From NCBI RefSeq assembly GCF_017592475.1, contig NZ_JAGFNP010000004.1:310001-374000 (forward strand): DNA of 64,000 bases. The letters are read 5' to 3'. The stretch's first letter is position 1, and each line of letters starts with the position of its first letter. The DNA is from Glycomyces niveus. Lineage in GTDB: Bacteria > Actinomycetota > Actinomycetes > Mycobacteriales > Micromonosporaceae. This document shows positions 18,897 to 55,540 of this stretch, piece after piece. Below the pieces are notes generated by a model, which had not been told where the DNA came from, made no database searches, and saw nothing but the letters and a program-made list of their open reading frames with translations. Both the position numbers and the translations under genes were made by a program.

Positions 18897-20453
18897 TCAG
18901 CTTGCTTCGAGTTGTACTGCCAGGAACTCCTCGCGCTGCTGGATGACCGTCTTGAGCGACTCCGCGGACGACGCCACATCGGCGGCGCCGTTGCGTTCCG
19001 CCGCCGCAGAGACGGTGTCGACCGCCTCCTCGGCCGCGCCGCTGGCGTAGATCCGTTCATAGAGGTCGTTATAGGCCTCCATGTAGACCTCCTGGAACGC
19101 CTCGGAGTCGAGGAACCGCTGCTTGAACTCGCCCGCGCCGGCGGACATCCCGCCGCCCATCCCCTCGGGCATGCCGCCTTCGGGCATCTCCATGCCTTCG
19201 GGCATCTCCATCCCCTCCGGCATTTCCATGCCCTCGGGCATCTCGCCCATGCCGCCGCCGCCCATGATGGACCCGGACTCGCCGGGCGCCAGTTCGGCGT
19301 TGGTCAGAGACAGGTCGAGGTCCCAGGTGATGACCGAGATCAGGCCGGTGTCGTAGTCGTACCAGAGGTAGTAGTTGCTGCCGGGCCCAGCCATGTCGTC
19401 GGTGTTGACGATCAAGTTCTGCAGCGCGGTGTAGTTCGCGAAGGATTCCACGTCGACCCAGTCGGCGAGCTCGGCGTCGAAGGTCGCGTCGTCGGCCGAG
19501 TCGAGCCACTCCAGGAAGTCGATGAGCGGCTGCACGTCCGCGGAGCCCTCCATGGTGACCTGCTTGAAATCGTCCTCGTACTCGCTCGGGTCCTGGCCCT
19601 GGTAGGCGAACTGGCCGCCAGCCCGTCCCTTGTAGAGCACGCCTTCGCTAGCGCCGTACTCCTCGTCGGCCCAGGTCACGTCCATCGCGTCGACGACCCT
19701 GCGGGTCACCGCCTCGGAGCCGTTCACCGAGACCTTGGAGTAGGTCCAGTCGTAGCTCGGCTCGCCACTGGCCTCGATCAACTCGAGTGCGACCGACTCG
19801 GTCAGGGTCGAACCGCCCATCCCCGAGTCGACGCGCAGCGTGATCTGCTGGTTGCCCTGGTAGACCTGGCCTTCGACGAACCTGGAGAAGTCCACCAGCC
19901 ACGGCAGCGACTCCGGGTCCTCGAAGCTCAGCGAACTGCCCATGCCGCCGAAGCCGCCCTCGCCGCCGCCGGGCATCTCCATGCCCTCCGGCATTTCCAT
20001 CCCCTCGGGCATCTCCATGCCTTCGGGCATCTCCATGTTCTCCGGCATCTCCTGGCCGCCCACGGTGATCTCGCCCCCGAGGCTCGCCAAGGTCGAGTTG
20101 CCCTTCAGACGGATGCCCACGTCGTTGATCGTGACGCCGTCAATGGTGATGTCGGCCTTGACCCACTCCTTCTCACCGGAGTCCTGGAACGTGTCGATCA
20201 TCTGCTGGTAGTCGTCCTCGCTGTACTCGAGGCTGATCTCATGCGCCACCGTCGTGTCGAACAGGTCCACAGTGCCCTGGACATCGTTGGTGACGACGAA
20301 CCCCTCGTTCGCCTCCGAGGTCACCACCGCGCTGACACGGATCGTGCCGACCGCCAGGACCAGGACCGCGACCAGGCCGATCGACCCGGCGATGAGCCGC
20401 CAGTAGTGCCGGACGCTCACCGGGATCCGGTGCCGCAGTGCCTTGGCGCTCAT
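18897..20453 (-). CDS. CotH kinase-family protein with Met-rich repeats
   Basis: 518 aa. The N-terminal membrane anchor (about 20-42) places the rest outside. The CotH fold follows: IRLKGNST near residue 115, LPWLVDFSRF, ALELIEASGE, YKGRAGG and the metal/ATP region ITWDLDLSL. Spore-coat CotH and relatives are atypical protein kinases. Two Met-rich insertions, at about 135-160 and 402-435, are tandem 6-residue units (MEMPEG), encoded by 18-bp repeats, an unusual addition that could bind Cu(I) or other soft metal. It is last gene of a VTC-DUF4956-CotH operon, starting 2 bases after DUF4956. The substrate is unknown. Confidence 0.8.
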   Translation of the reverse strand: MSAKALRHRIPVSVRHYWRLIAGSIGLVAVLVLAVGTIRVSAVVTSEANEGFVVTNDVQGTVDLFDTTVAHEISLEYSEDDYQQMIDTFQDSGEKEWVKADITIDGVTINDVGIRLKGNSTLASLGGEITVGGQEMPENMEMPEGMEMPEGMEMPEGMEMPGGGEGGFGGMGSSLSFEDPESLPWLVDFSRFVEGQVYQGNQQITLRVDSGMGGSTLTESVALELIEASGEPSYDWTYSKVSVNGSEAVTRRVVDAMDVTWADEEYGASEGVLYKGRAGGQFAYQGQDPSEYEDDFKQVTMEGSADVQPLIDFLEWLDSADDATFDAELADWVDVESFANYTALQNLIVNTDDMAGPGSNYYLWYDYDTGLISVITWDLDLSLTNAELAPGESGSIMGGGGMGEMPEGMEMPEGMEMPEGMEMPEGGMPEGMGGGMSAGAGEFKQRFLDSEAFQEVYMEAYNDLYERIYASGAAEEAVDTVSAAAERNGAADVASSAESLKTVIQQREEFLAVQLEAS

Positions 20454-20455
20454 GG

Positions 20456-21139
20456 CTACAGGTCCGTCTGGTCGTAGCCGGTCAGCACCGTCACCTGCTG
20501 GCCCTGCGTCACATCGCGCAGGTCCGCGAGCAGGTCGGCGGGTTTCTTCCCGGACTTGAGCTTCACGGTGAACGTCATCTCCGTCAGCGCCCCGCCCCTG
20601 ATCGTCTCCATGCTCACCTGCTCGTACTCGTCGGCGTGGCGGATCAGGACGTCGTCGACCTCGCCGGCCAGGTCCTCGTGCGCCGGCACCTGCACCTTGA
20701 CGACCTGGCGCTCCACGCTGTGCGCAAACCAGTTGAAACGGTGCATGATGAGCAGCACCAGGCAGATCACGGCGGTCGCGATGATCGCCAGCAGGTAGAA
20801 CCGCGTGCCGCAGGCCATGCCCACGCCCATCACCAGGAAGATGTACCCGACGTCGCGGGTCTCCTTGAGCGCGTTCCGGAACCGGATGATCGACAGCGCG
20901 CCGACGAGCGCGAACGCCCGCGCCACGTTCGAGCCGACGATCAGCATGATCATCGCGATGATCATCCCCATGATGATCAGCGTCTGCACATAGGACTGAC
21001 TGTAGGAGACGTTCCGGTGGGTCCGGCGGTACACCAGCGAGATCACGCAGCTGAGCACGAACGAGAGCGACAGCGAGATCGCGATGTCGGCGACGCTGAA
21101 CTCACCCGAGAGGTCGGTGAAATTGGTCAGGAAATCCAT
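20456..21139 (-). CDS. DUF4956 membrane protein
   Basis: 227 aa. Hydrophobic helices lie at about 20-40, 50-72, 95-112 and 115-135, then a soluble C-terminal domain (about 145-227) with an alternating beta pattern. The conserved stretch GALSIIRFRNALKETRD between helices is the DUF4956 hallmark. The family typically neighbours VTC-type polyphosphate polymerases and CotH proteins, as here; its biochemical role is unknown but a membrane partner of the polymerase is reasonable. It is the middle gene of the operon. Confidence 0.85.
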   Translation of the reverse strand: MDFLTNFTDLSGEFSVADIAISLSLSFVLSCVISLVYRRTHRNVSYSQSYVQTLIIMGMIIAMIMLIVGSNVARAFALVGALSIIRFRNALKETRDVGYIFLVMGVGMACGTRFYLLAIIATAVICLVLLIMHRFNWFAHSVERQVVKVQVPAHEDLAGEVDDVLIRHADEYEQVSMETIRGGALTEMTFTVKLKSGKKPADLLADLRDVTQGQQVTVLTGYDQTDL

Positions 21140-21182
21140 CTGGACGGCTGCTTTCCGCAGTTAGTGGGCGATGCCCGATCGG

Positions 21183-22040
21183 TTACTGGACAGCGGAGAC
21201 CGCCGGTGCGCCGGCGCCCTCCTGCTTGGCGTGGACGGCGAAGTCGTCCTCGACAGGAACGTGGAACGCCGAGCGCGGCGCCTGGCCGAACGCCTCGATG
21301 CTCTGGCAGTACTTGGAGACGCGGACGACCGCCATGCCCAAACGGGCCGAGAGGTCGGTGATCCAGTACGGGACCCGCTCGTTGGCCTTGACCTCCACCA
21401 CCGCTCTCGCGGGCGGGATGATCAGCCGGTTCTCGACCTCGGCCCCCAGGTGGAAATCCCGATCGCGGCCGCGCACGCGGTGGTCGATCGTCACCCGCAG
21501 CCCCAGATCGGCGTCGTAGCCGAGATAGGCCTCGCGGTTGTAGGCGGTGATCGCGGTCGGACGCAGTCCGTGCCCCTCGACCAGCCCGAGGACCTCTTCA
21601 AGGAACGGCCCCTGCTCCGGCTCGTGGTCGATGAGGACCCGCTCGTCGCAGAGCCTGCGGGCCAGCAGGTACGGGACCTTGACCCGGCGCTTCTGCGTCA
21701 CCCGGTTGACCCGCTGCTTGATCTCGACGTACACCGGGGTCTCGTCGGTGAGCTCGTGCCGCTCGCCGTAGGCGCGGACGCGGAGCTTCCGGCGGAAGTG
21801 CAGGCCCTCGATCTTCTCCCAGTAGTACCGCAGGGACTTCGAGTCGTAGTACAGGCTGGTCACCGGGTAGCCGCCGCGCACGGTGTACGGGTCGGCCTCC
21901 ATGCGCGCCCGCAGCTCCTCGCGCAGCCTCGGCACCTGGTCGTACGCGAGCAGGTACTTGATCTCGAACCGGTTGAACGAGTGCAGCGCGCTGGCGGTGC
22001 GGCGCAGGTGCGCGGCTTCTCCTCCGCTGAGTTGGCTCAT
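21183..22040 (-). CDS. VTC-domain polyphosphate polymerase-like protein
   Basis: 285 aa from ATG 22040, with AAGGAG 5 bases upstream. It is a VTC tunnel-fold domain: FNRFEIKYLL at the N-terminus, then YYDSKSLRYYWEKIEG, RKLRVRAYG, VYVEIKQR, AYNREAY, VTIDHRV, and AVVEVKANERVP at the end. These basic Arg/Lys and acidic Glu residues line the polyphosphate tunnel in the yeast Vtc4 family. It is cytosolic, as the first gene of the operon with DUF4956 and CotH. Polyphosphate synthesis or transfer is the best guess; activity of bacterial members is little studied. Confidence 0.82.
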   Translation of the reverse strand: MSQLSGGEAAHLRRTASALHSFNRFEIKYLLAYDQVPRLREELRARMEADPYTVRGGYPVTSLYYDSKSLRYYWEKIEGLHFRRKLRVRAYGERHELTDETPVYVEIKQRVNRVTQKRRVKVPYLLARRLCDERVLIDHEPEQGPFLEEVLGLVEGHGLRPTAITAYNREAYLGYDADLGLRVTIDHRVRGRDRDFHLGAEVENRLIIPPARAVVEVKANERVPYWITDLSARLGMAVVRVSKYCQSIEAFGQAPRSAFHVPVEDDFAVHAKQEGAGAPAVSAVQ

Positions 22041-22341
22041 CAACGCTCCTTGAATGCTTGGGAACGTCGACGAGTCAACCCGGCGAAGGTTTCAGTGAAC
22101 TCATGGTGAACTCAAAGTTGCCTCAGAGAAACACCCATATAAGGAATATCCATGCGGAAGGGATGACGCTACGTAATCCGTCGGCCCCTCGGTCGATGCG
22201 ATACGCGACGATCTCGGTCCCGTCATTCGCTGACACCGTGCCTTCCTCTCCTGCCTTCCCGGTGGCGGTGACCTGGTCGGAGAGCTCCGCAACCGCCACC
22301 TCGACAGGGCTCCGGAGCGGCCTCGAAGGCAATTCGGAGGT
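22041..22341. other. promoter region of the VTC operon
   Basis: 300 bases without a convincing gene. It holds the 11-base-phased direct repeat described next and separates the VTC operon from the histidine kinase gene, which lies upstream on the same strand. Confidence 0.45.
22096..22114 (-). promoter_or_regulatory. direct-repeat box, possible OmpR/PhoB-type site
   Basis: TGAACTCA occurs at 22096-22103 and again at 22107-22114, an 11-base period. Response regulators of the OmpR/PhoB class bind such tandem half-sites. The position, about 56-74 bases upstream of the VTC start, and the adjoining OmpR-type regulator gene make regulation of this operon by that system plausible. Confidence 0.4.
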
Positions 22342-23853
22342 TCACCTCTCGGGCAGCAGCACCCTGAACGTCGCACCACCGCCAGGGGTGGACGCCAAGC
22401 GCACGCAACCGCCATGGGTGGTGACGATCGCGGCCACGATCGACAACCCCAGGCCTGAGCCACCCTCATCTGCAGTCGTAACTCGGGCGCGGCCGGGATC
22501 GAGGCGGTAAAGCCGCTCGAAGACGGCTTCGGCGTGCTCGGCAGCAATACCGGGGCCGGTGTCAACGACTTCGACCACCGCGCAAGGCGGCGGCGGCACC
22601 TCCCCTACCTGCGCCAGGCATGGCGGTCCGGCACTGCCGCTCCAACCGAGGCGGACGGCGATCTGAGCCTGAGACGGGGTGTGCCGCAACGCGTTCGCCA
22701 CCAGGTTGGTGACCACTTGACGCAGGCGCGGCTCATCGCCGACGACGGCGACTGCGTCAAGCAGGTCTTCAGTACCTCCACTCAACGGCTCCAGGGAGAC
22801 GAAGCGGCCTCGCTCGCGCAGGTGCGCATCGCCGATGACGTCGGCGCAGATGCCCAGGAGATCGACCTCGCCTCGCCCGGAGGGGCGTTGCTCGTCGATC
22901 GCGGCCAAGAGCATGAGGTCGTCAAGCAGGAGCCGCATCCGCTGCGATTCGGCCACGATGCGGCCGACGGCCTCGTCGAGGACCGGGCCGGGCGGGGCGC
23001 CGCCGCGCTGGTAGAGCTGCGCGAAGCCGGTGATGGAGGTGAGCGGGGTACGCAGCTCGTGGGAGGCGTCGGCGAGGAACTGACGCAGTCGCCCTTCGGA
23101 TGCCGCGCTGTCGTCGAGACCAGCCTGGATGCGCGCGAGCATCATATTCAACGCCTGGCCGAGCCGGCCGGTCTCCGTATGGGGATCGGTGTCGGCCACG
23201 CGCTCGTCGAGCCGCCCTTCGGCGATCTGCACTGCGGTGACCTCCATGCGGTCGAGAGGACGTAGACCGATCCCGACCACCCACAGCGCGCCGACCGCGA
23301 GCAGCGCGAGAATGGCGAGGCTGACACCGCTGCCGATGAGCAGCAAGCTCTCGGTGGCCGCCTCCACGTGCTCGACCGACAGTGCGAGGACGACATAGCC
23401 GGTGTCGCCGTCCTTCTCGACGAGGACACGCCAAGCATTGCCGTCGGTGTCCTCGACTGTGTAAGGCGCCGCGCTTTCCGTGTGCTCCCCCAGGTCTCCC
23501 AGATCAGTCAGGGCGGGGAAGTCGACCTCCTCGTCACCGTCGCCGATGGCGTTCACGAAGGCGCCGTCGGCGTCGTAGACATAGACGCGCGGCACCTCCG
23601 GCATGTCGGTGGTCGGAGCGAACGGGTCACGGACTGGGCCACCGCCGGGCAGGTCGTCGACAGGGGCTCGCCGTTCGGCAATCTCGGCGGCGCCCCGCAG
23701 CTGTTCGTCGATCCGGTCGGTCAGCACCCCCTCCAGGAGGGCTGTGGCGGACACTATGGCGATGGCCAGCGCGAGCGCGCACAGTGCGACGGTGGTGACG
23801 GCCATGCGAGTGCGGACCGTCCAGTGTCGCCACCGGCGGAGCGCGGGTCTCAC
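22342..23853 (-). CDS. sensor histidine kinase
   Basis: 503 aa from GTG 23853, overlapping the regulator stop (GTGA). The N-terminal helix (about 20-40) and a second helix (about 170-195) enclose an extracytoplasmic sensor domain of 130 residues. HAMP follows, then HisKA with the phosphorylated His (ASHELRTPLTS), and an ATPase domain with N box (LVANALRHTP), G1 (DTGPGIA) and G2 (GSGLGLSIV). All motifs are intact. It pairs with the upstream OmpR-class regulator. The stimulus is unknown, but the neighbouring VTC-CotH operon is a likely target. Confidence 0.92.
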   Translation of the reverse strand: MRPALRRWRHWTVRTRMAVTTVALCALALAIAIVSATALLEGVLTDRIDEQLRGAAEIAERRAPVDDLPGGGPVRDPFAPTTDMPEVPRVYVYDADGAFVNAIGDGDEEVDFPALTDLGDLGEHTESAAPYTVEDTDGNAWRVLVEKDGDTGYVVLALSVEHVEAATESLLLIGSGVSLAILALLAVGALWVVGIGLRPLDRMEVTAVQIAEGRLDERVADTDPHTETGRLGQALNMMLARIQAGLDDSAASEGRLRQFLADASHELRTPLTSITGFAQLYQRGGAPPGPVLDEAVGRIVAESQRMRLLLDDLMLLAAIDEQRPSGRGEVDLLGICADVIGDAHLRERGRFVSLEPLSGGTEDLLDAVAVVGDEPRLRQVVTNLVANALRHTPSQAQIAVRLGWSGSAGPPCLAQVGEVPPPPCAVVEVVDTGPGIAAEHAEAVFERLYRLDPGRARVTTADEGGSGLGLSIVAAIVTTHGGCVRLASTPGGGATFRVLLPER

Positions 23854-24566
23854 TGATCGGCCCTCGGGAGCCTGAGCGAGTATCCGAAGCCGCGGACGGT
23901 GTGGATCAGCGGCGGGTCGACCATGTCGATCTTCTTGCGCAGGTAGTAGATGTACGACTCGACGATGCGGCCGCTGCCGCCGAAGTCGTACGCCCACACC
24001 CGATCAAGGATCTGGTCCTTGCTGACGACCTTGCCGGCGTTGATCATCAGATAGCGGAGCAGTTTGAACTCCGTGGGGGACAGACCGACCGTCTTTCCCG
24101 CACGGCGCACCTCGTGCACGGTGTCGTCGAGTTCGAGGTCGTGGTAGCGCAGCACCTCCTGTTCGAGGACGATCGGTGCGGAGGTGACGCGACGCAGGAT
24201 CGCCTGCACCCGCAGGACGACCTCTTCGAGGTCGAACGGCTTGGTCACGTAGTCGTCGCCGCCGACGGTCAACCCGGTGACTCTGTCGCGCACCGAGTGG
24301 CGGGCGGTCAGGAACAGGACCGGGGTCTGGCGTCCCTCGGCACGCAACCGCTCGGCCACAGCGAAGCCGTCCATATCGGGCAGCATGACGTCGAGGATGA
24401 CCAGGTCGGGCTCGAATTCGTCGGCGGCGTGCAGGCATTCGGTACCATCTTGGGCGACCTCGACCTCGAAGCCGGTGAGTCGCAGCGTGGCCGACAGCAG
24501 CGCGCGAATGTTCTCCTCGTCGTCGACGACCAGAATTCGGTCTTTGCGCTCAGGCGAGATGCTCAC
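23850..24566 (-). CDS. OmpR/PhoB-family response regulator
   Basis: 238 aa from GTG 24566, placed by GGAGGAG a few bases upstream; an ATG 27 bases further up lacks such a site. The receiver domain has the acidic pair (VVDDEEN), phospho-acceptor Asp (VILDVMLPDMDG), Thr (LTARH) and Lys (VTKPFD). The C-terminal winged helix ends with the typical HTVRGFGYSL. It overlaps the kinase gene by 4 bases. Confidence 0.93.
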   Translation of the reverse strand: MSISPERKDRILVVDDEENIRALLSATLRLTGFEVEVAQDGTECLHAADEFEPDLVILDVMLPDMDGFAVAERLRAEGRQTPVLFLTARHSVRDRVTGLTVGGDDYVTKPFDLEEVVLRVQAILRRVTSAPIVLEQEVLRYHDLELDDTVHEVRRAGKTVGLSPTEFKLLRYLMINAGKVVSKDQILDRVWAYDFGGSGRIVESYIYYLRKKIDMVDPPLIHTVRGFGYSLRLPRADQ

Positions 24567-24804
24567 CGAAGCTCCTCCCTGAAGTCCGTTCATTGGTGTC
24601 CGGCTCGGCCGAGGCGTCGCAGCAAGGAGCCCGGTGCGGATATGAGGATCACTGTGCTGAGGACAATCCCATGCAGGAGATCTTCGACTTCGTTCCTGGG
24701 TGCGGGCTCAAGCCGACCTCAGAGCCGACTCGGAATCCGACTCCTAGCTGATCTTGAGCCGAGTTCGAGCAGTTCTCAACGTCAAGGGCGGACAGTATGC
24801 CGCT

Positions 24805-25404
24805 ATGCGCACCATTTCCTCCTTGCCGCGGCATCTCCTGCACGTGGTTGCATTCACGGCCGCCGGCCTTCTCCTGACCGCCTGCGGATCCGGAGTCGAA
24901 ACCGACGAGAACCCCGACGAGAGCGCCTCTACCAGCGGCGACGCGATGAGCGCCTATGTCGCCTGCATTGAGGAACAGGGCATCGAGCTGCCCGAGGGCT
25001 GGGCGGCCGACCTCGGCGGCGGAATGCCGAGCTTCGATCCTGAGAATGCTCCGACGGACCTGCCGACGGATATGCCCACTGAAATGTCCGGGGGGATGCC
25101 GAGCGACATGCCTTCCGGCGGCTTCGGCGGCGGAGTCGAAGCCCCTGAAGGCGTCAGCGACGAGGACTGGCAGGCGGCCCAAGAAGCCTGCACGGACGAG
25201 ATGCCCGTGGGCGGCGGCTTCCCCAGAGGCGAGGCTCCGGGCTCGGACGAGCCCGATGATCCCGCCGCCTACCGCGACTGCCTCGCGGGGCGCGGTGTGG
25301 AACTCGGCGACGACCAGTCCCAGCTCGACGAAGCCGACCCAGAAGTCGCCGCCGCGATAGAGGAATGCACGGCGCGCACCCCCGAGTCGAGCACTGGGTC
25401 TTAG
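24805..25404 (+). CDS. lipoprotein with two Cys-containing repeats and a Met/Pro linker
   Basis: 199 aa. ATG 24805 begins a signal peptide ending in the lipobox LLTACGS. Two related short segments follow, AYVACIEEQGIELPEG and AYRDCLAGRGVELGDD, the repeat seen in actinobacterial lipoproteins linked to export systems. Between them lies a linker of DMPTEMSGGMPSDMP type that resembles the Met/Pro repeats of the CotH protein. It is transcribed away from the two-component genes, so it could be part of the same regulon. No function is assigned. Confidence 0.7.
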   Translation: MRTISSLPRHLLHVVAFTAAGLLLTACGSGVETDENPDESASTSGDAMSAYVACIEEQGIELPEGWAADLGGGMPSFDPENAPTDLPTDMPTEMSGGMPSDMPSGGFGGGVEAPEGVSDEDWQAAQEACTDEMPVGGGFPRGEAPGSDEPDDPAAYRDCLAGRGVELGDDQSQLDEADPEVAAAIEECTARTPESSTGS

Positions 25405-52635: not shown

Positions 52636-53991
52636 TCAGCAGGGGACGTCCATGTCGGCGGCCGAGCCTGAGGCGACGAAGCCGAAGAGCTCCTTCGTCT
52701 GGCCCGCCGCGACGGAGGCGTTCCAGCCGACGTCCTTGGCGGTGACGTTGGCGCCGGACGAGGTCAGCTGCGTGTTCCAGCTGCTCGTGACCGCCTGGCC
52801 GGAGGGCCAGGTCCACTTCACCGTCCAGCCGTTGACTGCTTGGGCGGGGGTCATGGAGACCTTGCCCTGCCAGCCGCCGTTCCAGGTGCTGACGACGTCG
52901 ATGTGGACGGTGCAGGCGCCCGGTCCGCCCGTGGTGGGGTTGCCCGTCGGACTCGAGGTCGGGCTGGTGACCGGGTCGGTCGGCTCGACCTGGCCGGGCC
53001 AGCCGCTGCCGGCGTTGTTGGCGAGCTGGTAGGCCAGGTCGGGGATGAACTGGCCGGCCGATCCGGCGCAGCCGTCGGCTTCACCGGGGAGCTTGATCCA
53101 CAGGTAGGCGTCGATGCCGGTGACGCCGGTGGCGGTGGTCGGGAACTTGCCGATGGCGCGGCCCGGCGGGTCGCACCAGTCGTTCGGGTTGGGCGGGTTC
53201 AGCGGGCCGTTGCCGTTGCGGCTGGTGTCGATGACGGCGCCCTTGCTCGTGCCGACGATGCCGCGGATCTGCTGCGCGTACGCGGTGGCCTCGTCGGTGG
53301 TGCGGTAGTTGGAGACGTTGAGCGCGAAGCCGTCCGCGTACTGGATGCCGGCGGCCTGGAGGCGCCTGCCGGCTTCGGCGGCGGTGAGCCAGGCCGAGTT
53401 CCCGGCGTCGAGGTAGACCTTGGCGGCCGGGTCGGCGGCGTTGAGCTTCTGGGCCGCATAGGAGAGCGAGGCGTTGATCTCGGCGCGTTCGGCGGCGCTG
53501 TGGCAGTCGTGCGCGAGGATGTCGGGCTCGATGATGATGTACGCGGGGCCGTCGATCTCGTTCGCGATCTGGTCGACCCAGCGCCGGTAGGACGGGTGGT
53601 CGGGCGCGCCGCCGCCGGAGTGGCCGCCGCAGTCGCGGTTGGGGATGCCGTAGACGACCATGGTCGGGGCCGCGCCGGCCGCGGCCGCGCCGTCGACCAC
53701 GGCGGCGACCTGGGCGGCGATGCCGCCGGTGGGGTTGTACTGGGTGAACCAGGTGCCCGCGGGGGTCTCGGCGATCCGGTCGCGGATCATGGACGCGCGC
53801 CAGTCGTTCGGGTTCTGGGCGACCCACCGGGCCGCGCCGGTGTTCGGGTTCGTCCATAGTGCCTGGGCTTGCGCGGTGACGTCCTCCTGCGCGCCCGCGG
53901 TGGGGCCGAGGAGGAAGCCGGTGCTGAGTGCGGCGGCGACCGCGGTGGCCGCTCCCGCGACGATCGCCGCGAGGCGCTGTCGTCGTTTCAT
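52636..53991 (-). CDS. GH6 cellulase with C-terminal CBM2
   Basis: 451 aa from ATG 53991 (AAGGAG upstream). It is secreted by the signal peptide 1-34. The GH6 catalytic domain (about 40-325) has YGIPNRDCGG, IIIEPDILAHDCH with catalytic Asp, and NPPNPNDWCDPPGRAIG. A Pro/Thr/Ser linker (about 330-350) leads to a CBM2 cellulose-binding module with Cys at both ends (ACTVHIDVV to MDVPC) and the exposed Trp residues. It is an endoglucanase or cellobiohydrolase. The gene has its own CebR-like operator and a terminator, and sits between rsmB and rpe, probably as an inserted gene. Confidence 0.94.
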   Translation of the reverse strand: MKRRQRLAAIVAGAATAVAAALSTGFLLGPTAGAQEDVTAQAQALWTNPNTGAARWVAQNPNDWRASMIRDRIAETPAGTWFTQYNPTGGIAAQVAAVVDGAAAAGAAPTMVVYGIPNRDCGGHSGGGAPDHPSYRRWVDQIANEIDGPAYIIIEPDILAHDCHSAAERAEINASLSYAAQKLNAADPAAKVYLDAGNSAWLTAAEAGRRLQAAGIQYADGFALNVSNYRTTDEATAYAQQIRGIVGTSKGAVIDTSRNGNGPLNPPNPNDWCDPPGRAIGKFPTTATGVTGIDAYLWIKLPGEADGCAGSAGQFIPDLAYQLANNAGSGWPGQVEPTDPVTSPTSSPTGNPTTGGPGACTVHIDVVSTWNGGWQGKVSMTPAQAVNGWTVKWTWPSGQAVTSSWNTQLTSSGANVTAKDVGWNASVAAGQTKELFGFVASGSAADMDVPC

Positions 53992-54051
53992 CTGGTGCTC
54001 CTTGGGTCGTCGTGCCGGTAACCCGGGGAAATATTTACCCCTATCTATAAA

Positions 54052-54065
54052 TGGTAGCGCTTCCA
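54052..54065. promoter_or_regulatory. CebR-like operator
   Basis: TGGTAGCGCTTCCA, 14 bases, differs in two positions from the CebR box TGGGAGCGCTCCCA of streptomycetes, a LacI-family repressor site for cellulose-utilisation genes relieved by cellobiose. It lies 61 bases upstream of the GH6 start. Confidence 0.7.
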
Positions 54066-54160
54066 AATCGGTGGGTTTCGATGCCCCACCCGAAAAAACC
54101 GGGCCTCCCGCCGCGACCGGTTCGCACCGGTACGCGGCAGAAGGCCCTCGAGCTGGAGTG

Positions 54161-55540
54161 TTACCGGTTGCCGGTCTTGCGAAGCAGCGCAAGGAACATC
54201 GCGTCGGTGCCGTGGCGGTGCGGCCACAGCTGAGCGAAGTCGCCTCGCTCCGAGCCGGGGACGCGCTTCGTCAGCCAGTCGGGGCGCACGAGCTCCGCTC
54301 CCCCGGCCGCGAGCACCGACTCGACCACTTCGGAGGTCTCCGCGGCCACCGGTGAGCAGGTCACGTACGCGACGACCCCTCCCGGGCGCGCCAGGCGCAG
54401 CCCCGAGGCGAGCAGTTCGCGCTGCAGCGGCACCAGGTCGTCGATGTCGCTGCGCTGCTTGCGCCACCGGGCCTCCGGGCGGCGGCGCAGCGCGCCGAGC
54501 CCTGAGCACGGGGCGTCCACGAGCACCCGGTCGGCGGAGTTCGACTTCCCGAAGGTGCGGCCGTCGCCGGTGTGGACGGTGACGGGCAGGCCGCGCGCCG
54601 CCTTGGCGACGAGCTCGGCCCGGTGCGCCTGGATCTCCACCGCGTCCAACGTCGCTTCCCGTTGGGCCGCAAGGGCACCGAGGAGACCGGTCTTGCCGCC
54701 GGGACCGGCGCACAGGTCGATCCAGGCCTGGTCGGGGCCTTCGAGAGCGGCTTCGGCGAGCTGCACGGCGACCAGCTGGCTGCCCTCGTCCTGCACATGC
54801 GCCAGTCCCGTGGCGACGGCCTTGATGCGGCCGGGGTCGCCGCTGGGCAGGTACACCGCGTACGGCGACCACTGGCCGTGCTCCCCGCCGCGGGTCTCGC
54901 GCGACAGGTCGCCCTTGGTGATCCGGCCCGGCTTGGCGCACAGGTGCACCGGGGGCGCGACGTTGTCAGCCGCCAGCGCGGGCGGCAGCTCCTCGGGGCC
55001 GACGACGGCCTCGAACTCGGCGGCGATCCACTCGGGGTGGGCGTGCCGCAGGGACAGGTCGTGGAGGCGGTCGCCGGTGGCGAGCTCGGCCGTCCACTCC
55101 TCGAGGTCCTTCGCGGCGACCTTGCGCAGCACGGCGTTCGCGAGCCCGGAGACGCGCGGCGAGACGGCGGCCTTGACGAGGCTGACGGTGGTGGCGACGG
55201 CCGCGTGCGGGGGGACGCGCATGTACAGCAGCTGGTAGGCGCCCAGGCAGAGGGCGTCGACGAGGTCCTGCTGGAGTTGGCGCATGTCGCGGCCGGAGGC
55301 GGCGGCGAGGATCGCTTCGAGGGTGCCGAGGCTGCGGAGCGTGCCGTAGGTGAGCTCGGTGGCGAGCGCGGCGTCGCGGCCGGTGTTGTCGGTCTCGGCG
55401 AGCATGCGCGGCAGGACGAGGTTGGCGTAGGCGTTGTCGGCGGTGACGGCGCTGATCGCGTCGAACGCGACGCGGCGCGGGTTCACCTTCGGGCGGTCGC
55501 GGTCAGGCTCACGGCGGCGGTTCCTTCTGTTGTCGCTCAT
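54161..55540 (-). CDS. rsmB: 16S rRNA (cytosine-967-C5)-methyltransferase
   Basis: 459 aa from ATG 55540. The N-terminal NusB-like domain (about 25-160; [14 protein letters not shown]) is followed by the SAM-dependent m5C methyltransferase: [35 protein letters not shown] with the catalytic Cys, and [10 protein letters not shown] with the second Cys. It starts within the fmt stop (ATGA). Confidence 0.93.

Follow-up and report, generated by a model that had tools for sequence, protein, structure and literature searches.

What signal induces the operon in which Glycomyces niveus encodes a VTC polyphosphate polymerase domain protein, a DUF4956 membrane protein and a CotH-type kinase, and what process does that operon serve? 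The locus is situated in a 64 kb stretch (the window, within which all positions below are given) of the organism's 5.26 Mb genome. A preliminary description had proposed that these genes form an operon encoding an envelope system, either for copper or another soft metal or for polyphosphate-linked protein modification. The operon was confirmed: all three genes have Pfam matches, are on one strand, and follow each other in the minus-strand order VTC, DUF4956 and CotH, with gaps of 43 bp (VTC-DUF4956) and 2 bp (DUF4956-CotH). The operon and its promoter have the following features:

18897-20453, minus strand: CotH-type kinase with one N-terminal membrane helix (PF08757, 99.7 bits in Pfam)
20456-21139, minus strand: DUF4956 membrane protein (PF16316, 86 bits; MgtC below the Pfam cut-off)
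21183-22043, minus strand: VTC polyphosphate polymerase domain protein (PF09359, 154 bits; start at TTG 22043 or ATG 22040)
22073-22078, minus strand: TTGACT, the -35-like hexamer of the operon promoter, 33 bp downstream of the PHO box
22094-22111, minus strand: PHO box GTTCACCATGAGTTCACT, an exact match (GTTCACC, then ATGA, then GTTCACT)
22094-22126, minus strand: array of three TGAG-containing 11-bp units that overlaps the PHO box

We consider it fairly probable that this operon is a phosphate-starvation-induced envelope module which combines polyphosphate synthesis with an exported kinase. The features observed directly are the gene order, the PHO box, the conservation of both, the active-site residues and the CotH fold. 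The best-supported new finding is the link to phosphate regulation; the biochemical role is one that we infer. When phosphate is low, the PhoP/RegX3-type regulator of the genus would bind the PHO box and activate the three genes. VTC would then make polyphosphate at the inner membrane face as a Vtc4-type enzyme with DUF4956 as its putative membrane partner, and CotH would be an exported, membrane-anchored phosphotransferase of kinase fold that acts on surface proteins or matrix.

A PHO box in the operon promoter

The PHO box of Streptomyces coelicolor consists of 11-nt units with the consensus GTTCACC (PMC4415409, available part). The promoter of the G. niveus operon resembles those of the actinobacterial Pho regulon, as described in the same part of that source, in having a pair of directly repeated 11-nt units ahead of a -35-like hexamer, and also in that box matches precede ppk1, PhoX and pst-like genes of the same genome. 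The operon box was the sole site in the window to score 13/14 or higher. In the complete genome, the pattern with up to one mismatch had 17 matches versus four for a reversed control; two of the 17 were exact, one of them being the operon promoter. Five of the one-mismatch matches were upstream of genes for ppk1, PhoX, a PstS-like protein (beside PhoU), a PstB-like ATPase and PhoU_div; for the last of these, the opposite strand carries the box (PstS and PstB were named from context plus Pfam). These matches upstream of phosphate genes serve as a positive control for the box pattern, which also outnumbered its reversed control in all 18 genomes of the genus that were searched.

The box is conserved at related operons (loci and genomes are referred to below by L and G numbers). 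All 14 Glycomyces operons had scores of 11 to 14 out of 14, with a shuffle p no higher than 0.03 in each case. A TT[GAC]ACT hexamer was equally spaced from the box in 13 of the 13 Glycomyces loci where our script detected the unit; on visual inspection L109 fits as well. Both Catellatospora operons had a PHO box (p 0.002 or less), and that of the Streptomyces operons was weak (L048, p 0.008; L058, p 0.044). A term search of the Pho-regulon literature checked, as far as its main text was available, found no occurrence of CotH or VTC.

The 17 matches also include a PHO-like box about 270 bp upstream of an mgtE gene in the G. niveus genome (G000:C3:54850, L137). In several other Glycomyces an mgtE-like gene is located just downstream of CotH (for example, L036 11730-13091).

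Predicted functions of the three operon proteins

A profile of 31 VTC sequences matched yeast Vtc4 (3g3q, E 1.1e-22), with weaker matches to Vtc2 and Vtc3; PDB sequence searches with single sequences had no matches, and matches came only with profiles. Ten residues (K29, R88, R90, E107, K109, R170, R183, E217, K219, and K244) are invariant in the 31 sequences and identical in Vtc4, where we take them to be catalytic. Judging by its sequence, the VTC protein is likely an active polymerase, as it has both the VTC domain and the Vtc4 active-site residues. It has in common with Vtc4, the catalytic subunit of the yeast VTC complex (3g3q, 8i6v, 7ytj), the catalytic domain with its conserved active-site residues, but by Pfam it is a VTC domain alone, without SPX or a membrane part in the same chain, and the locus encodes a separate membrane protein instead. 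The polyphosphate side of the preliminary description is thus supported by a Vtc4-like active site as well as by the PHO box.

The DUF4956 protein has a helical N-terminal part and a ferredoxin/ACT-like C-terminal domain, and its R86 and R88 are invariant across 44 sequences. Its AlphaFold2 model has a mean pLDDT (predicted local distance difference test) of 83.4. A fold search with this model had no match at E 0.001 or better, and those above that value were mostly ferredoxin/ACT-like pieces.

The CotH model (AlphaFold2, mean pLDDT 79.9) matched the CotH kinase structures 5jda and 5jd9 with Foldseek E values of 6.0e-13 and 2.7e-13 and VIA Z values of 31.1 and 30.9, respectively, the next fold having a Z of 11.8. 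D352 and W377-D378, which do not vary among 50 sequences, aligned with the NFD and PWD motifs of 5jd9; the Asp pair D352/D378 is presumably catalytic in CotH kinases. Based on PF08757, the fold and this Asp pair, we assign the protein to the CotH kinases; fold and active-site Asp pair are also shared, more distantly, with HipA-like and Fam20 kinases. Unlike the proteins of 5jd9 and 5jda, G. niveus CotH is membrane-anchored and has two disordered inserts, and no spore-coat context was seen. Its catalytic domain is predicted to lie outside the membrane, based on the single N-terminal helix that follows a basic N-terminus. A CotH search model drifted to other CotH proteins, and its match in the window at 52639-54192 was rejected; the gene there (minus strand) encodes a GH6 cellulase with CBM2.

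It is conceivable, but in our estimation unlikely, that VTC and DUF4956 jointly synthesize polyphosphate and translocate it through the membrane, with the exported CotH using polyphosphate rather than extracellular ATP as its donor. CotH would in that case phosphorylate or polyphosphorylate surface proteins or matrix when switched on by phosphate starvation, a role to which we assign the same low likelihood. Such a donor is compatible with the locus: the CotH domain is predicted to be outside, where ATP is scarce, and ppk1 already covers storage.

Distribution of the trio and its relation to Pel loci

Searches with the CotH protein found 25 loci in one genome collection, of which 18 (L032-L049) carry VTC, DUF4956 and CotH by tblastn; L055 was added by profile, and the other six match through the repeat alone. 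In an even phylum sample of 396 genomes, 44 had a DUF4956 match, at 46 places. The neighbors of 40 of these places were surveyed, and because six of the 40 have less than 3.1 kb on one side, the counts are lower bounds: VTC adjoins DUF4956 in at least 38 of the 40 loci, and CotH is within 5 kb in at least 22.

The three contiguous families, comprising an exported CotH, an MgtC/ACT-type membrane protein and a polyphosphate polymerase domain, are those of the accessory genes of Gram-positive pelDEADAFG loci (SIR_1592-1594), as described in the available parts of PMC7112168 and PMC12345266. According to the former, CotH, polyphosphate polymerase and DUF4956 genes are contiguous with pel in streptococci and clostridia, with a variant in bifidobacteria. 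According to the latter, deletion of SIR_1592 or SIR_1594 (the DUF4956 or CotH gene) in Streptococcus intermedius alters the amount of Pel and lowers aggregation, which we count in favor of the envelope module proposed above. It is a possible, if less favored, explanation that the operon is an accessory module of exopolysaccharide synthesis, Pel-like or other, which tunes the amount or anchoring of a surface polymer, and this would be compatible with phosphate control.

Several neighborhoods fit such a role. In L068 the neighbors of the trio are a GT2/chitin-synthase-like enzyme and a HEAT protein, and like-named genes adjoin in the Clostridium perfringens locus NELoc-2, for which the available part of PMC2879425 lists VTC, CotH and chitin synthase. 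In addition, a PF14262 carbohydrate-binding protein follows VTC-DUF4956 in all seven CotH-less loci scanned (L060, L061, L062, L064, L070, L071, and L072), and one is also present in L074. However, the G. niveus genome had no match to PelG (PF16933; other pel genes were not searched), so that contiguity with pelDEADAFG was not found, and a scan of ten window proteins revealed no glycosyltransferase. The locus also differs from the Pel accessory genes in its PHO box, adjacent two-component pair and Met-rich CotH loops. A literature search for CotH, VTC and DUF4956 together found none. In its available part, PMC12345266 states that this gene order was not found outside the Pel locus in its analyses; unlike that outcome, we find it here outside a Pel locus. 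The G. niveus locus is probably a phosphate-controlled variant, outside a Pel locus, of a known but unexplained trio.

The adjacent two-component system and lipoprotein

Upstream of the operon are a two-component pair and a divergent lipoprotein gene:

22342-23853, minus strand: sensor histidine kinase (HAMP, HisKA and HATPase_c in Pfam), neighbor of the operon
23850-24593, minus strand: OmpR/PhoB-family response regulator (Response_reg and Trans_reg_C in Pfam), neighbor of the operon
24701-24733, minus strand: array of three CGAG/TGAG units of 11 bp, located between the regulator and lipoprotein genes, without a PHO box
24805-25404, plus strand: divergent lipoprotein with two Cys motifs and a Met/Pro-rich linker, an optional companion

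Inspection of the sequence indicated that the kinase is best read as 22342-23853, with its GTG overlapping the regulator stop, and that the lipoprotein starts with the ATG at 24805 and has the lipobox LTAC and a Met/Pro/Gly-rich linker. The best NCBIfam model for the regulator was PhoB, under its cut-off, and a Pfam scan of the lipoprotein gave no family. The pair next to the trio and the linker were as first described. The preliminary description had also regarded the pair as the operon's own two-component system, and of this the adjacency stands for part of the genus only: the kinase is adjacent in just 6 of the 14 operon-bearing Glycomyces, and the operon promoter resembles the target of a phosphate regulator.

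The link between operon and pair is recurrent. In 16 of the 40 surveyed loci, DUF4956 has a regulator and a kinase no farther than 6.5 kb away, versus an expectation of about 0.035 per locus. This expectation is derived from the 14 Trans_reg_C hits (of 25 in total) that exceed 60 bits in the 5.26 Mb genome; the binomial tail is 1e-13, or 6e-7 at an expectation of 0.1, both uncorrected for relatedness. Of the 22 genomes of the genus, the same 14 have close orthologs of the kinase and of DUF4956 (adjacency in G135 is undecided because both genes are near contig ends). This co-occurrence is weakened by the presence of two kinase subgroups and by shared ancestry. In the kinase tree the linked copies are in several branches and the unlinked copies in one (support 92/99, not starred), and G108 has a copy of each kind.

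It is somewhat doubtful, though it deserves consideration, that the adjacent pair rather than the phosphate regulator controls the operon through shared 11-bp TTGAG repeats, the signal possibly being envelope stress. Three TTGAG-like units at 11-bp spacing precede VTC in 12 of 13 Glycomyces loci, with p at most 0.01 (p is 0.24 in L041), and they precede the regulator in 4 of 15 (the window, L033, L035, and L039), with p at most 0.003. If one mismatch is allowed, the G. niveus genome has three such triples versus one for the reversed control, at the operon promoter, at the regulator/lipoprotein promoter and inside a predicted open reading frame. We initially favored the repeat as a private operator of the local regulator, and demoted it because the same bases were recognized as PHO box: TGAG followed by TTCAC belongs to that box, and the box of the PstS-like gene also reads TTGAGTTCA. 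Moreover, the array is weak at the other 11 regulator promoters (p 0.02 to 1), and none of 17 regulator promoters, including that of the local pair, had a PHO box at p below 0.05.

One unlinked pair, the related regulator-kinase pair of L097, is located inside an MFP-regulator-kinase-MFP-MacB cluster, and short MFP-like stretches are beside the regulator in L032, L105, and L107. These neighbors suggest an older partnership in which the pair once served an exporter. We consider the adjacent pair to be a frequent companion that may provide a second input to the operon. A literature search for CotH, MgtC and two-component systems together found none.

Other loci also have regulators nearby. VTC-DUF4956 genes are accompanied by a regulator-kinase pair in L059-L061 and L063-L067, with PF14262 following in L060, L061, and L064; in the L061 kinase, a short Met/Pro stretch lies close to the first helix. 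A divergent second type of CotH/DUF4956-VTC locus is present in five Glycomyces that lack the ortholog (L111-L115), with an OmpR-type regulator nearby and a GTTCACGTGGAGTTCA-like sequence at the regulator start.

The lipoprotein had a match in 9 of the 22 genus genomes, that of G. niveus included, which rules it out as a fixed part of the system. Among five unlinked lipoprotein copies, only that of G128 has a TGAG array. In G128 one and the same 27-mer of TGAG repeats precedes both the regulator (C5:24855) and the lipoprotein copy (C5:97125), 72 kb apart.

Methionine-rich loops of CotH

The two blocks of MEMPEG repeats noted previously in CotH were recovered as Tandem Repeats Finder arrays, both with an 18-bp unit:

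19941-20060, minus strand: loop 1, residues 132-171, MEMPEG repeats (Tandem Repeats Finder, 19972-20052), pLDDT below 50, predicted disordered
19149-19262, minus strand: loop 2, residues 398-435, MEMPEG repeats (Tandem Repeats Finder, 19157-19244), pLDDT below 50, predicted disordered

Loop 2 starts about 20 residues past the WD motif and would therefore sit where kinases have the activation segment. Of the 29 Met of CotH, 22 are within residues 132-172 and 396-440, and outside the two loops Met makes up 1.7% of residues. Such packing of 22 Met into two short loops, along with the apparent retention of ATG codons in a window of 68.8% GC, would suit Cu(I) binding, and MxM spacing resembles known Met-only copper sites. 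However, the residue before Pro in repeat-like units was Met in only 83 of 236 cases, the others being A, L, F, G, P, R, I, Q, etc.; His or Cys was found at this position in none of the 236, with one or two elsewhere in some loops. Across 39 CotH sequences, loop 1 varies from 0 to 102 residues (16 or fewer in 18 of the 39) and loop 2 from 19 to 163, and in the ortholog of G085 (L109), which has a linked kinase, loop 1 is devoid of Met. MEMPEG runs are also present in proteins of other families, namely PMT_2/YkcB mannosyltransferases (L054, L056) and a PF14262 protein (L053), and the repeats occur in two family-less proteins (L050, L051).

The Met exchange, the loop variation and the repeats in other families argue against a conserved metal site, although the loops may bind some metal. 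The conserved Met/His/Cys ligands of Met-rich copper-binding proteins were not found in the loops, which on sequence grounds are better regarded as low-complexity disordered inserts. We consider it very unlikely that the locus is a copper or soft-metal envelope system in which Met residues of the MEMPEG loops and of the lipoprotein linker bind Cu(I), and we reject it as the main explanation on account of the Met exchange and loop variation; no copper gene was recognized by Pfam among the ten window proteins scanned, and the PHO box on the promoter points to phosphate rather than copper.

Evaluation of phosphate control

Several observations weigh against phosphate-starvation control of a polyphosphate module. 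Period 11 was the best in the Glycomyces operons, but its score was equaled by period 13 in L036 and L126 and by periods 9 and 12 in L106. The VTC upstream regions of Corynebacterium L046, Propionibacteriaceae L049, and L057 were without a box, and conservation inside one genus does not amount to independent evidence. Of the 17 matches in the G. niveus genome, seven are inside predicted open reading frames, the second exact match included, and three have no obvious target. Because the genome carries ppk1, a second polymerase is unnecessary for storage. Finally, the S. intermedius SIR_1593 (VTC gene) mutant still aggregated, with no change reported in the available part of PMC12345266.

The second exact match (C24:397798) was set aside: it is 31 bp past a gene stop, within a doubtful open reading frame, and no target was found.

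The VTC-DUF4956-CotH trio is widespread and unexplained, and the literature, in its available parts, discusses it with Pel biofilm loci. In G. niveus, whose genome has no PelG match, the PHO box on the trio provides a testable input signal, phosphate limitation, and connects phosphate homeostasis with a Vtc4-like enzyme of bacteria and with an exported protein of kinase fold.

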